Shown: in pieces, positions 14,121 to 61,810 of the stretch
How the letters are laid out: each line of letters opens with the position of its first letter
Position numbering within the stretch: position 1 is the first letter of the stretch
NCBI RefSeq assembly: GCF_900474295.1
Contig: NZ_UCOB01000025.1
Coordinates: forward strand, 1 to 64,000
Source: Synechococcus sp. UW140
GTDB taxonomy: Bacteria; Cyanobacteriota; Cyanobacteriia; PCC-6307; Cyanobiaceae
DNA length: 64,000 nucleotides
Direction: 5' to 3'
Notes under the pieces: generated by a model
Told to the model about the DNA's origin: nothing
What the model saw: the letters and a program-made list of their open reading frames with translations, nothing else
Databases searched by the model: none
Made by a program: the position numbers and the translations under genes

Positions 14121-14192
14121 AGCGGATGAAGAGATTCGAACTCTCGACCCTCTCCTTGGCAAGGAGATGCTCTACCACTGAGCTACATCCGC
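14121..14192 (-). tRNA. tRNA-Gly (anticodon GCC)
   Basis: On the minus strand the sequence folds as a complete cloverleaf: acceptor stem GCGGATG paired with CATCCGC, D arm GCTCAGTGGTAGAGC, anticodon stem TCTCC/GGAGA with loop TTGCCAA, and T arm GAGAGTTCGAATCTCTT. The anticodon is therefore GCC, reading GGC and GGU. The discriminator base is U, as usual for bacterial tRNA-Gly. The 3' CCA is not encoded. It lies downstream of ribH on the same strand. Confidence 0.95.
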
Positions 14193-38792: not shown

Positions 38793-40148
38793 ATGGCCAA
38801 ATTCGATGCCCATCTGAAGTGCTCCTTCTGCGGCAAGTCCCAGGAACAGGTGCGCAAGCTGATCGCCGGTCCCGGCGTGTATATCTGCGATGAATGCATT
38901 GATCTCTGCAACGAGATCCTTGATGAAGAGCTGATCGACGCCCAGGGCAATCCCCGCCATGGCGCTGATGCAGCTCGCAAAACTGCCCAGGGCACACGCA
39001 AGAGCAGCAAGCCAGCACCCACCCTGGCCACGATTCCCAAACCGCAGGAGATCAAGTCATTCCTGGATGAACAGGTTGTTGGTCAGGATGCTGCCAAGAA
39101 GGTGCTCTCCGTAGCTGTTTACAACCACTACAAGCGGCTGGCTTGGCAGGGGGATGGCAAAGGCGAAACGGAAGAGACCGCTACCCGGCTGCATAAGAGC
39201 AACATCCTGCTGATCGGCCCGACCGGCTGCGGCAAGACCCTGCTGGCCCAAACGCTGGCAGAAATGCTCGATGTGCCCTTCGCCGTGGCCGATGCCACCA
39301 CCCTCACAGAAGCGGGATACGTCGGTGAGGACGTGGAAAACATCCTGCTGCGACTGCTCCAGAAAGCCGACATGGATGTGGATCAGGCTCAGCGCGGCAT
39401 TATTTATATCGACGAGATCGACAAAATCGCTCGCAAGAGTGAAAACCCCTCGATTACCCGCGATGTCTCTGGTGAAGGCGTTCAGCAAGCCCTGCTGAAA
39501 ATGCTTGAGGGCACGGTCGCCAACGTGCCACCGCAAGGTGGACGCAAGCACCCTTATCAAGACTGCATCCAGATCGACACCAGTCAGATCCTGTTCATCT
39601 GTGGCGGCGCCTTCGTGGGGCTGGACGATGTGGTGCAGAAACGGATGGGACGTAACGCCATCGGCTTCGTGCCAAGCAGCGATGGTCGCGGTCGCAACCG
39701 CGCCAACCGCGACCTCCAGGCCGCCCAAGTGCTGCGCAACCTGGAGCCCGACGACTTGGTGCGCTACGGCCTCATCCCAGAGTTCATTGGCCGCATGCCA
39801 GTGAGCGCCGTGCTTGAACCCCTGGATGAACCGGCCCTCAAGTCAATTCTCACCGAGCCTCGCGATGCGCTGGTGAAACAGTTCCGCACCTTGCTGAGCA
39901 TGGACAACGTGCAGCTCGAATTCGAGAACGATGCCGTCGCAGCCATCGCCTCAGAGGCCCACCGGCGCAAAACCGGCGCCCGTGCCCTCCGCGGAATCGT
40001 GGAGGAGCTGATGCTCGATCTGATGTACGACCTCCCCTCGCGCAAGAACGTGAAAACCTTCACCGTGACTCGCGCCATGGTGGATGAACACACCGGCGGC
40101 AAGGTGCTGCCGCTGCCAGGCGCTGATCGTCAACAGGAATCCGCCTGA
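38793..40148 (+). CDS. clpX: ATP-dependent Clp protease ATP-binding subunit ClpX
   Basis: AAA+ unfoldase feeding ClpP. 451 aa. The N-terminal zinc finger has [19 protein letters not shown] and [10 protein letters not shown]. Walker A is [19 protein letters not shown], Walker B is [19 protein letters not shown], the pore loop [11 protein letters not shown] is intact, and IGFVPSS is the IGF-type loop that docks on ClpP. Sensor 2 lies in [21 protein letters not shown] linker of about 30 residues rich in Ala/Lys/Ser follows the zinc domain. 87 bases after clpP and four bases before the LRAT gene. Confidence 0.97.
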
Positions 40149-40152
40149 AGCG

Positions 40153-40773
40153 ATGGCCGCTGCCAATCACCTTCAGGTGCCTCGGCAGCACGGCCTTTTT
40201 CTCCACCACGGCATCGACCTGGGCGACGGCACCGTGGCCCACTACCTGGAGGGCAGAGAAATCCTGCGCAGTGCGCTGGACGACTTCAGCCAGGGCCAAC
40301 CGGTGAGCGTGGTTCCGCACACGCAGTGCTCTCCCCAGGGGGTGACCCTGCGGCGAGCGATGGGCCGCATCGGCGAGCAGAACTACAACCTGCTGTTCAA
40401 CAACTGCGAGCACTTCGCCACCTGGTGCAAAACCGGCCGTCATCACAGCGCCCAGGTGAACTCGGTGATCGACAAAGCCCGCAGCTGGAGTGCCCGCATG
40501 CCATCAGCGCTAATGGCCGGGCTGGAGCTGCTGGTGCAACGGGGACTTCTGGATGACAACAGCCGCGCCCTGGCCCGCAAGGGTGTGACCCAACTGGAAC
40601 AATTGCGCCTCAAACTGCTCAACAAGCTGGAAGCGCTGCTGCAACAGGCTGGTGATGGTGGCAATCAACGCTTACTGCTGAGCGGCCAAAGCCTGGCGGA
40701 TGAATTAGCGGCAGTGGAAGACCTGGAGAACAAGCTCAACACACTGCTGGAGCAGCAAGGCAGAGACCAATAG
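40153..40773 (+). CDS. LRAT-domain (NlpC/P60-like) protein downstream of clpX
   Basis: 206 aa. The first 110 residues show the LRAT-type permuted NlpC/P60 pattern: QHGLFLHHGIDLGDGTVAHY with the conserved histidine, and YNLLFNNCEHFATWCKTG with the Asn-Cys-Glu-His motif whose cysteine is the nucleophile in the family. The C-terminal half is helical with a coiled-coil look (LEQLRLKLLNKLEALLQQA, LAAVEDLENKLNTLLEQQ). Relatives are acyltransferases or hydrolases acting on lipids or peptides; the substrate here is unknown. ATG at 40153, four bases after the clpX stop, so probably cotranscribed. No signal peptide. Confidence 0.8.
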   Translation: MAAANHLQVPRQHGLFLHHGIDLGDGTVAHYLEGREILRSALDDFSQGQPVSVVPHTQCSPQGVTLRRAMGRIGEQNYNLLFNNCEHFATWCKTGRHHSAQVNSVIDKARSWSARMPSALMAGLELLVQRGLLDDNSRALARKGVTQLEQLRLKLLNKLEALLQQAGDGGNQRLLLSGQSLADELAAVEDLENKLNTLLEQQGRDQ

Positions 40774-40836
40774 ATCAGGCTGAGTCGCATCAAGGCCAAG
40801 AAAGCGGCACAAACACGCTTTTATTTGGGTAACAGG

Positions 40837-40858
40837 GGGTGAAAATATTTCACCCTTT
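40837..40858 (+). terminator. Probable terminator of the clpX-LRAT unit
   Basis: GGGTGAAA (40837-40844) and TTTCACCC (40848-40855) form a perfect 8-bp stem with a three-base loop, followed by TTT. The T tract is short, so efficiency is uncertain. A smaller hairpin just before it (AAGCG / CGCTTTTATTT, about 40801-40827) has a better T-rich tail and may be the working element instead. Confidence 0.5.
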
Positions 40859-40910
40859 CGGAATAGAGCCGACAAAAAACCACCAATAACTCAATCAAAA
40901 AACTTGCGAA

Positions 40911-40935
40911 TGTCAATACAAATAGGACATTGACA
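40911..40935. promoter_or_regulatory. Inverted repeat upstream of the DUF4347 gene
   Basis: TGTCAAT (40911-40917) and ATTGACA (40929-40935) are exact reverse complements separated by 11 bases, the geometry of a dimeric regulator site. The right arm contains TTGACA, a perfect -35 hexamer, but no good -10 box is seen 16-18 bases further. Its role is inference. Confidence 0.35.
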
Positions 40936-41160
40936 ATCTTGGGGGATTCCTGCAAACCACCCAGCAGACAACAAAGAAACAACTACAGCAGAGCCCAGCA
41001 ACGCTTCTGCGACTTAACCAAGCGCTGATCAATAAGCCCTGGCGCAGGCGATCCGACTCAGCGACGAGACCAGAACTCAGCGCTTAAAAGCAACGCACTC
41101 AGGCGCCTGCCCCAACACCGCCCAGCCACTTCACGAGCCCACATCACAAGCCGATTAATC

Positions 41161-44100
41161 ATGACCTTCAAAGCCTGCGGACTCGAGCAGATCGACAGCT
41201 CCACCAACACCCAAGGGCAGAGACAGGCCACGCTGATCGTGGCTGACGGCAGCTGCCCCAAGATCCGGGAGTTGCTGGCTGAGGCCTTGGTGCCGGTGCT
41301 GTGGCTGGATGCCAGACAGCCACCACTGCAAAGACTGACTGCGCTTTTAGCGGAGCGCCGCCGACTGGGGCAACCGGTAGAGACACTGCACTGGGTGAGC
41401 CATGGCCAACCGGGGGTTCTGCGGGTCGCTGCCTACGACATTGATCGGGACGCGCTCTTAGCGCATCAACAACTGATCGCTGAGTGGGGGATCAGCGAAC
41501 TCGCCCTCTGGAGCTGCGAAGCCGGAGCAAAGAAAAACTTCATCAGCTTGTGGCAAGAACTCACCGGTGCACGGGTGTGGAGCAGTGAAGAGCAACTGGG
41601 TCGCAATCACCAGGGGGTTGCGCACTGGAAACTGGAATCTGGAGCAGCTGGCAAGCAGGCACCGGTACTGCCCGTGATGCAGCAGACATTGCGCAGCTGG
41701 CCGCATCAACTTGCAGCGCCTGTTGCGAGCGGCTCACCAACACTGACCGCCGTCACAGAAGACACCACCACCCCGGCCGGCGACACCGTTGCCAACCTCT
41801 TCTCCAGCTCCTTCTCCGATGCCGACAGCGACACCCTTCTCGGTGTTGCCATCACCGCCAATGCTGCTGATTCCTCAACGGAAGGCGTTTGGCAATATGC
41901 CACCGGTAACGGCAGCAATTGGACTGCTGTTCCAACCACAGGCCTCGCGGATACCACAGCCTTCTATCTCGAGTCCGACAGCAAACTGCGGTTCCTTCCC
42001 GCTGCTGATTTCAACGGCACACCCGGCGCACTTACCGCGCATCTGATCGACAGCACGTACAACGGCGCTGCAGGAAGCAATTCCGATTACTTCCTGCAAT
42101 TCATCGAGACTGCATCAGAAGTCAAAGCCACCCTCACACTTGATCCAACTGCTTTCAGTGCCAATTCAATCTGGAGCCAAGTAAATGGAACAGGTGTTTT
42201 TGCGACTGTTGTCGGTCCGGCAGATGCTGGAATTGGGGGAACTGTAGGGACTGTCGCGTCGCCCGCCCGCAACGCTTACGACAAATCTGATATAACTTTG
42301 AGCGCCAACATTCCCCTAATTGGCACCCAGCCCACCGCTCCAAATCTGGTAGGAGGTGACCAGTTCTCGCTCGCAGACTCAGCCACCGGCGACCTCTTTG
42401 GCCTATATAGTGAAACCAATGACCTAAGTGGAATAATAGCTTATGACGAAAATATGTATAACTCTTTGGTCAATCAAACCAATCCTGTTGTTTCGACGGC
42501 TACATGGAATAACACCACCCTGCTTGAATTAGGCATTGGCGAAGGTACTGGAACTTTCTTCACTACGGGCGGCTCATTATCCTTCAATGGCGCCTACTCA
42601 ATAGACATTTTTGAGGCAGGTGACTCTATCAATATTTCCACCAACGGCGGCACCACAGCCATCTCTGCCAACACGCTGAGCCTCGGCACATCCGTCACGG
42701 CCGTCAATGACGTACCCGTCACTAGTGATATAAAAGTTGGCTATTTTAGCGGTTCCTCCACAACCACAAATGCTGCTCTTGAAAGTACAATAGAAGCTAT
42801 TAATTCATCTGCAATCAAAGATCTAACCAATGCTGGCATCACCCTGCAGGCCGACTCTATAGCCTTTGAGGCAGAGGTCGACGAGAGCATTCCCAGAACC
42901 ACATTCAATCTGGCACTCTCAAGCCTCAATTTTGAGGATGGCGCGATCAGCACAAGCGAAGGTGTGCGCGACACACGAAAAAAACTTCTTTATTACTCAG
43001 TGGATGACGAGGGAGAAGTTTCAGCTCTGAGTTTTGACCCCCTCGTCAATGCCGGTGCCCGTTTTTACGATCTCGATGGTGATGGACTTGCCGACTACCT
43101 TTCCCTGACTCTGATTGATGGCGGATTCGGCGATAAAGACGAGGCAAAAAATGGAGTCATTGAAGATCCCTCCACTGCAGCCTCCGTGGCACTGGATCCG
43201 GTCATCCAAACCAACGACGACCCCTTCAATCTGCTCACGATTACCGACCCCAACAACGCTGCACCTGCCGCGCTCAACCTCAACGCCACCATCACCGGAC
43301 GCAGTAAGGCTGTAAATCAGATCGGTTACATCCTGCTGGATGGAGATGAAGTTGCCTCTGCCAAGACCATTCTTGGTGATCTTGATCAGATCAAAGAGCG
43401 CGCCACCATCCTGTTCAGCAGCCTGGAAGCAGACGACGTCACCCTTCCTGATAACTACACGTTCATGCGGGATCTGCTGGTTCGCAACGGCCAATCCTTG
43501 CGCTTCTTCTCTTTGGAAGACACCACGCTCGACACACTCAAGAGCGTGAAAGATTCCCGTTTGTCTTTCCTGGATTCAACGGTCAACAGCGATGGCAGCG
43601 TCTCTTTCGCAGCAAGCTCAGGACTGAGCTTCAATCTTGCCCTTAATGCCAACGATCAAGGCCTTAATGCCTTAGTGGCCCAAGAGCAAGGAATCGCTCC
43701 CGTCCTCAATGTCACTCCATTCACCAATGGGGAAATCCTCAACGGCTCCCTGGTGCAGGCCAGGGAAGCCACCCTCGACGCCCTCACCGGTTTCTACAAG
43801 GTGGTAGACCCAAACGGAATGGTGATGGCTGCCGATGGCTCCCTGATCGCCCCAGGGGCTGCGGGTTACGCCAAAGCGGCTCTACGCGCCGACAACCTTT
43901 ATGGCGGAGACGATTTCAACTTCTCACTGACCAATGGCAAAACTGAACAGTCAGCGCTTGAGATGGCAAACCTCAGCGGCTATCTGGCCCCCTACGCCAA
44001 GGTGCAGAGCAACACCTTCTTTGCCTTTGCCAAGGCCAACAGCGATGGCATCAGCCACTTCCGCGTCCTCGGTAACAACATCTTTGGCCTGGAAGACCAA

Positions 44101-44166
44101 TTTGGTGGTGGTGACCGCGACTTCGACGATCACATCATTAGCTTCCAGTTTGATTCGATCACCTAA
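41161..44166 (+). CDS. Large DUF4347 / cadherin-like / DUF4114 surface-type protein
   Basis: 1001 aa, no Sec signal peptide. The N-terminal DUF4347 domain (about 20-165) contains VETLHWVSHGQPGVLRVAAY and ELALWSCEAGAKKNFISLWQ. From about 185 there is a cadherin-like module (LTAVTEDTTTPAGDTVANLF, GVWQYATGNGSNWTAV) whose end (TNGGTTAISANTLSLGTSVT) appears about 190 residues later than usual. RFYDLDGDGLADYLSLTL is a calcium-binding-type motif near 640. The C-terminal DUF4114 is seen in NNIFGLEDQFGGGDRDFDDH. DUF4347 and DUF4114 are common in large cyanobacterial proteins exported by type I secretion, so the protein is probably extracellular. Codons at about 42100-42800 are more AT-rich than in neighbours. 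Confidence 0.85.
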   Translation: MTFKACGLEQIDSSTNTQGQRQATLIVADGSCPKIRELLAEALVPVLWLDARQPPLQRLTALLAERRRLGQPVETLHWVSHGQPGVLRVAAYDIDRDALLAHQQLIAEWGISELALWSCEAGAKKNFISLWQELTGARVWSSEEQLGRNHQGVAHWKLESGAAGKQAPVLPVMQQTLRSWPHQLAAPVASGSPTLTAVTEDTTTPAGDTVANLFSSSFSDADSDTLLGVAITANAADSSTEGVWQYATGNGSNWTAVPTTGLADTTAFYLESDSKLRFLPAADFNGTPGALTAHLIDSTYNGAAGSNSDYFLQFIETASEVKATLTLDPTAFSANSIWSQVNGTGVFATVVGPADAGIGGTVGTVASPARNAYDKSDITLSANIPLIGTQPTAPNLVGGDQFSLADSATGDLFGLYSETNDLSGIIAYDENMYNSLVNQTNPVVSTATWNNTTLLELGIGEGTGTFFTTGGSLSFNGAYSIDIFEAGDSINISTNGGTTAISANTLSLGTSVTAVNDVPVTSDIKVGYFSGSSTTTNAALESTIEAINSSAIKDLTNAGITLQADSIAFEAEVDESIPRTTFNLALSSLNFEDGAISTSEGVRDTRKKLLYYSVDDEGEVSALSFDPLVNAGARFYDLDGDGLADYLSLTLIDGGFGDKDEAKNGVIEDPSTAASVALDPVIQTNDDPFNLLTITDPNNAAPAALNLNATITGRSKAVNQIGYILLDGDEVASAKTILGDLDQIKERATILFSSLEADDVTLPDNYTFMRDLLVRNGQSLRFFSLEDTTLDTLKSVKDSRLSFLDSTVNSDGSVSFAASSGLSFNLALNANDQGLNALVAQEQGIAPVLNVTPFTNGEILNGSLVQAREATLDALTGFYKVVDPNGMVMAADGSLIAPGAAGYAKAALRADNLYGGDDFNFSLTNGKTEQSALEMANLSGYLAPYAKVQSNTFFAFAKANSDGISHFRVLGNNIFGLEDQFGGGDRDFDDHIISFQFDSIT

Positions 44167-61738: not shown

Positions 61739-61810
61739 GCGGGTGTAATTCAGTGGTAGAATGTCAGCTTCCCAAGCTGAACGTCGCCGGTTCGAGTCCG
61801 GTCACCCGCT
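61739..61810 (+). tRNA. tRNA-Gly (anticodon CCC)
   Basis: Complete cloverleaf: acceptor GCGGGTG with CACCCGC, D arm ATTCAGTGGTAGAAT, anticodon stem TCAGC/GCTGA with loop TTCCCAA, T arm GCCGGTTCGAGTCCGGT. Anticodon CCC reads GGG. Discriminator U; the 3' CCA is not encoded. The second tRNA-Gly of the window, with the other (GCC) at 14.1 kb. Confidence 0.95.

Follow-up and report, generated by a model that had tools for sequence, protein, structure and literature searches.

Split domains of the immunoglobulin-like type have been described in RTX adhesins, namely AhLap of Aeromonas hydrophila (PMC12077191) and FrhA of Vibrio cholerae (PMC10865825). In both, the split domain is a β-sandwich that is discontinuous in sequence and from which another domain emerges, and it escapes ordinary family models. 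The 1001-residue protein analysed here is encoded in the window, that is, the whole 64,000-nucleotide stretch of Synechococcus sp. UW140 DNA under study. It resembles the adhesins in having a discontinuous β-sandwich with a segment emerging from it, an arrangement missed by family models. RTX adhesins are giant proteins with RTX repeats, whereas this protein is of ordinary length and gives no RTX repeat match in Pfam. The order of the pieces is also reversed: in FrhA, a single strand precedes the inserted domain and most of the split domain comes after it (PMC10865825), whereas here the bulk comes first and is followed by one strand. The protein therefore appears to work like the RTX adhesins without belonging to them. 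Our preferred reading, to which we give a probability of about two in three, is that residues 185–519 form a carrier–passenger display unit that resembles the RTX adhesins in its working only.

The bacterial cadherin-like and Big repeats (Cadherin_4, Cadherin_5 and Big_9 in Pfam) are, like the repeat described here (the carrier repeat), tandem β-sandwiches of the extracellular type, and cadherin EC domains align with its model at middling Z scores. It differs from them in giving no match above cut-off to Pfam or NCBIfam, with five sequences tested per library. In the literature consulted, as represented by titles and the beginnings of abstracts, the repeat was not found under a name, which is no proof of its absence from print. 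Polymorphic secreted proteins consist of one constant and one variable part. Like them, the genes described here keep their ends, have middles or upstream regions unrelated to one another, and include paralogues with a near-identical shared part; in this case, though, the long constant part is the C-terminal one.

Architecture of the 1001-residue protein

The gene occupies positions 41161–44166 of the forward strand (1001 codons and a stop), on which the domains and segments given in this section also lie. It is an open reading frame flanked by clpX/orf229 and dnaX, and its position is syntenic in two related genomes (G018 and G011). A DUF4347 domain spans residues 26–184 (41236–41712; PF14252, E 8e-17, 61.9 bits for a cut-off of 24.6). 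It is followed by the first part of the carrier repeat (residues 185–302, 41713–42066), the insert, which is the putative passenger (residues 303–492, 42067–42636), and the last strand of the carrier repeat (residues 493–519, 42637–42717). The C-terminal half (residues 522–1001, 42724–44163) is common to paralogues and orthologues and contains a DUF4114 domain at residues 915–997 (43903–44151; PF13448, E 2.7e-9, 38.3 bits for a cut-off of 27). Beyond these two domains, Pfam gave no match in the protein at E up to 1, and the sole NCBIfam match, to a choice-of-anchor U model at residues 634–674, lies below its cut-off (29.3 versus 32). This DUF4347/DUF4114 protein is probably exported.

A β-sandwich repeat broken ahead of its last strand

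The first part of the repeat ends in LIDSTYNG, and the last strand, STNGGTTAISANTLSLGTSVTAVNDVP, starts 191 residues further on, at residue 493. Profile HMMs gave 171 bits for the first part and 31.7–32.3 bits for the last strand. None of 100 shuffles of the protein's own downstream stretch reached the real strand score of 32.3 bits, and the maximum over 2300 shuffles (23 downstream stretches, 100 shuffles each) was 8.3 bits. With the same strand HMM, reversed proteins gave five hits of at least 3 bits, one of at least 5 and none of at least 8, versus 612, 548 and 429 in the real proteins. The layout is made clear by an alignment (A6) of 12 uninterrupted repeats from 11 loci, 36–53% identical to the repeat of the window protein, in which a short loop leads to the last strand and the segment of about 190 residues is absent. 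A Pfam search of residues 183–525 gave no match, and four uninterrupted repeats gave either none or only matches below cut-off to unrelated families. The preliminary description had read a cadherin-like repeat whose final strand returns only after some 190 residues, and the profile searches bear out this reading, with the repeat running to about residue 302 and the strand lying at 493–519. It is thus confirmed that an Ig-like sandwich in the 1001-residue protein is broken in sequence by a separate segment.

An AlphaFold2 model based on A6 has block pLDDT values of 83–97 over the first 120 residues and of 29–51 in the insert, for which the alignment held no relatives. The last strand, at model residues 319–327, is placed in the same sandwich as the first part, and the block 321–330 within it has a pLDDT of 95, with 63 and 81 in the adjoining blocks. 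A larger alignment (A5) put the last strand in the wrong place and was set aside for modelling. VIA-align was run on Foldseek candidates, and the 50 alignments shown, many of them to cadherin domains, have 88–127 aligned residues and Z scores of 4.6–6.2, which are middling. Every one of the 50 alignments begins at model residue 1–7 and ends at 331–343, so that residues behind the insert are included, VIA-align reporting only the first and the last aligned residue. A plain Foldseek search with the whole model gave no match below E 0.6. For these reasons (middling Z, end residues only, and the plain search) the fold name, a cadherin-like β-sandwich, is tentative. Taken together, the A6 alignment, the model, the VIA-align ranges and the strand HMM indicate that the last strand probably joins the first part in one sandwich. 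Searching PDB sequences with the carrier profile gave three matches at E ≤ 1, of which the strongest, to a viral protease over 47 residues (E 0.0077), was taken as chance. AlphaFold2 models of the split repeats with a P-domain passenger, described below, had a mean pLDDT of 49.6, too poor for use.

Split repeats in other proteins

When genome contigs were scanned with the N-half of the repeat, 104 places were confirmed, the best 80 of which correspond to 79 loci. In 400 genomes of the family there were 42 matches in 22 genomes, and tandem arrays of the carrier repeat are present in other genomes. Across these loci and those from the genus, N-halves scoring at least 25 bits numbered 307 in 110 proteins; a last strand lies within 45 residues of 252 of them and not of the other 55, many of which read as degenerate but contiguous or are cut by a contig end. 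Split repeats were counted in 17 cases, nine by the strict HMM and eight partly by reading, and 17 of 307 is no natural frequency of splitting because the set was gathered by similarity to the repeat and is not a random sample. The nine cases with a strong last strand far downstream, all among the 55, are the 1001-residue protein, L068, L069, L077, L090, L121, L136, L219 and L223. The eight read as split, with weaker strands, are L041, L042, L101, L213, L214, L215, L225 and L226. Shuffles of their own stretches scored as high as the real strand in 3 of 100 for L041 and L226, in 1 of 100 for L214 and L225, and in none of 100 for L042 and L215; for L101 and L213, whose strands score 7.5 and 6.1 bits, the top hit in the shuffle test was not the strand itself. 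Three copies of the first part were found in the genome of the window (the 1001-residue protein, L041 and L042); each was judged to be split, though the strands of L041 and L042 are weak.

Several candidates were discarded. L067, flagged as split by the script, reads as contiguous, as do L081, L087, two repeats of L088, and L093. Two repeats of L218 and those of L222 and L229 look split but, with weak last strands of −3.2 to 8.3 bits, were left out of the 17; in L224, L228, L230 and L231 the sequence ends before a last strand or shows none. At the passenger position, L218 (residues 104–520) and L222 and L229 (behind residue 126) carry GIYAQRFNADGSKNGAEF-type repeats, in which Pfam found nothing for L218 and only a CopC match below cut-off for L222.

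Most of the passengers can be named. Those of L068, L069, L077 and L101 are proprotein convertase P-domains (PF01483, E 3.6e-13 to 3.9e-10), that of L090 is a Reelin subrepeat B (1.3e-7), and those of L121, with matches below cut-off only, and L136, with no match, look by eye like that of L090. LVIVD passengers are found in L042 (5.3e-17) and in L213, L214, L215, L223, L225 and L226 (9.9e-28 to 5.3e-121), a propeller below cut-off in L041, and FG-GAP_3 in L219 (1.7e-20). The named passengers measured with the same tools as the insert are 166–187 residues long. Seven of the split repeats are non-cyanobacterial: six are assigned to Pseudomonadota and one (L136) to Rhodopirellula maiorica, a planctomycete. 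Splits of this loop are thus known from three phyla, Cyanobacteriota, Pseudomonadota and Planctomycetota. Since further members of the repeat family are interrupted there by different domains, the architecture is a recurrent one.

A variable block between conserved gene ends

Both orthologues, L044 in G018 and L045 in G011, keep the order clpX, orf229, the gene and dnaX, with a partial clpP at the locus edge. Protein identities in G018 and G011 are, respectively, 95.3% and 99.6% for clpX, 92.1% and 94.3% for orf229, and 77.8% and 94.1% for dnaX. Within the gene, blastn homology ends at 41309 (G018) or 41426 (G011) and restarts at 42835 or 42726, which leaves 41310–42834 and 41427–42725, respectively, without DNA homology. 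The unalike block thus measures 1.3–1.5 kb, from codon ~50/89 to codon ~522/559, and has conserved flanks in both syntenic orthologues. It comprises two thirds of the DUF4347 domain, the entire carrier repeat and the insert, and with respect to G011 its downstream limit lies directly behind the last strand. Its interior contains a DUF4350-like part below cut-off in L044 and a DUF6923 match above cut-off in L045, and the first part of the repeat is absent from both orthologues. As neither carries an uninterrupted repeat, a separate insertion cannot be shown at this locus.

Base and codon composition was compared with the insert taken as residues 301–493. The insert has a GC content of 0.484, a GC3 of 0.447 and 9 ATA, TTA or TAT codons in 193. 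The corresponding values are 0.599, 0.629 and 2 in 118 for the N-half of the repeat, 0.642, 0.815 and 0 in 27 for the last strand, and 0.526, 0.585 and 8 in 481 for the C-terminal half; the DUF4347 part has 2 such codons in 182. The insert contains 30 rare codons in 190, whereas both parts of the repeat together have 4 in 143 (Fisher P 7.5e-5) and the C-terminal half has 39 in 477 (P 0.005). Residues 521–620 are as atypical as the insert (14 of 100, P 0.73), so the AT-richness, though real, extends past it. In 300-base steps, GC also falls to 0.46–0.55 in the unrelated middles of both orthologues. The insert was lower in GC than the N-half in all ten split repeats compared; its GC3 was not lower in four of them (L041, L090, L101 and L121), and amino-acid make-up therefore explains part of the low GC. 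These compositional data are no proof of a foreign origin.

These data bear on the closest competitor of the preferred reading, in which one piece of foreign DNA recently entered an intact repeat and gave rise to strain-specific variation. The insert's codons, unlike those of either repeat half, would agree with such an event, as would the fact that the 399 other family genomes searched yielded no convincing relative of it. Nevertheless, the block that differs between strains extends far past the insert, the following hundred residues share its composition, and the same loop is taken up by different domains elsewhere in the repeat family, which makes a recent insertion unlikely. The preliminary description had proposed much the same, and part of it stands: a separate segment is indeed nested in one repeat, its DNA is AT-rich with rare codons relative to both repeat halves, and the gene does differ between relatives. 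On the other hand, the interruption is not a one-off event, the composition is not unique to the insert, and the unit that differs is the whole block rather than the insert alone.

The C-terminal half is 82–84% identical at the protein level in G011 and G018. At E up to 1e-20 it has 28 matches in 10 of 31 genomes of the genus, and 14 of the matches, in five genomes, are near-full, covering at least 424 of 478 residues. The parts upstream of this shared half vary, including LVIVD, FG-GAP_2, RCC1, RTX and Big_9/cadherin-like regions, among others. In the genome that contains the window, two paralogues (L040:4658-8170, forward strand, and L041:1443-5117, reverse strand; C29 and C23 of G000) have halves with 95.0% DNA identity over 1425 bp, and two genes of G213 have 90.8% over 1299 bp; neither pair shows a further upstream DNA match of at least 80% over 150 bp. 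The halves of L040 and L041 look as if they had been exchanged or duplicated recently, and an exchange of blocks by recombination through the conserved parts would fit this pattern. A pair in G017 (L046:1430-4861 and L047:1553-5050) is 86.3% identical over 3461 bp, nearly the full length, passenger parts included, and speaks against a general rule of a shared half with differing upstream parts.

Nature of the insert

Pfam and NCBIfam gave no match in the insert region. The only strong match to the insert among the family genomes is in its own genome; two further genomes matched with per-genome E values of 0.004 and 0.007, no better than chance over 400. No relatives were found in viral contigs, plasmids or PDB sequences (nothing below E 1). 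The one lead is a weak resemblance to PEP-CTERM-type proteins. The insert has GDLFG and NN-TL--LG stretches in common with L060 (G346), a secreted protein of PEP-CTERM-like type, and with L060 as a single query the insert ranked first of 4910 (18.1 bits, the next 14.6). An early profile test placed the insert at the top of 2002 sequences (E 0.0086, the next 0.14), with an hhalign probability of 37%. A three-member profile ranked a shuffle higher than the insert, with real proteins as decoys, and a four-member profile gave it 10.7 bits versus 10.6 for a shuffle. Since the profile fails to separate the insert from shuffles, homology is not claimed. Further members of the PEP-CTERM-like profile were sought and found in 3 of 194 genomes (one being the source of a member), 0 of 3 and 1 of 274, and L145 as a query matched one of two genomes, its own. 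Three PEP-CTERM-like relatives searched against viral contigs gave nothing, nor did L060 against plasmids. No NCBIfam PEP-CTERM model, and hence no C-terminal sorting signal of this kind, matches the 1001-residue protein, and any resemblance is at most limited to the domain part.

The low model confidence of the insert and its lack of a family match would also agree with a low-complexity or disordered linker grown within the loop, with no domain in it. Low confidence is nevertheless expected where the alignment holds no relatives of the insert, whose length is close to that of the named passengers as obtained with the same tools. On direct reading, moreover, it is diverse in sequence and has W, Y, F and C-free β-type stretches, and we regard a linker as very unlikely. 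A deletion that fused two neighbouring repeats, leaving a first part and a last strand of different origin with unrelated sequence between them, is conceivable given the tandem arrays in other genomes but barely credible, as the two parts sum to one full repeat, the structural alignments cover both, and the same arrangement is found again in other lineages.

Proposed working of the display unit

In the carrier–passenger reading, the cadherin-like sandwich is split in the loop ahead of its last strand. The passenger of about 190 residues would leave and re-enter the chain at that loop and thus project sideways, and the last strand, coming after it, would close the sandwich. The passenger presumably folds independently and, by analogy with the RTX adhesins, may recognise something outside the cell. 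The C-terminal half with its DUF4114 domain would be the constant handling part, serving export or anchoring, and blocks could move by homologous recombination within the conserved ends of the gene. A broader view, which we put forward tentatively and would not yet favour, is that the repeat is a general display socket whose last loop has repeatedly taken in whole foreign domains in three phyla, and that these cyanobacteria trade blocks among alleles and paralogues, whereby the display can change without any alteration of the export and anchor parts.

If this is true, a long gap ahead of the last strand in such repeats would flag candidate binding domains that family searches miss, and the principle would no longer be confined to the RTX adhesins, the proteins for which split domains have been reported. 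Block replacement between conserved ends, at a fixed chromosomal place, would likewise be a route to vary a probably exported protein.

Surroundings of the gene

Between clpX and the gene lies orf229 (40084–40773, forward strand), which may be LRAT-like judging by eye. The stretch behind it, 40774–41160, immediately upstream of the gene, is AT-rich (GC 0.43–0.50 in 200-base windows) with a strong AT skew, and sits within DNA conserved with both orthologues. Rfam, at gathering score, finds nothing in the window except two tRNA genes, at 14121–14192 on the reverse strand and at 61739–61810 on the forward strand.
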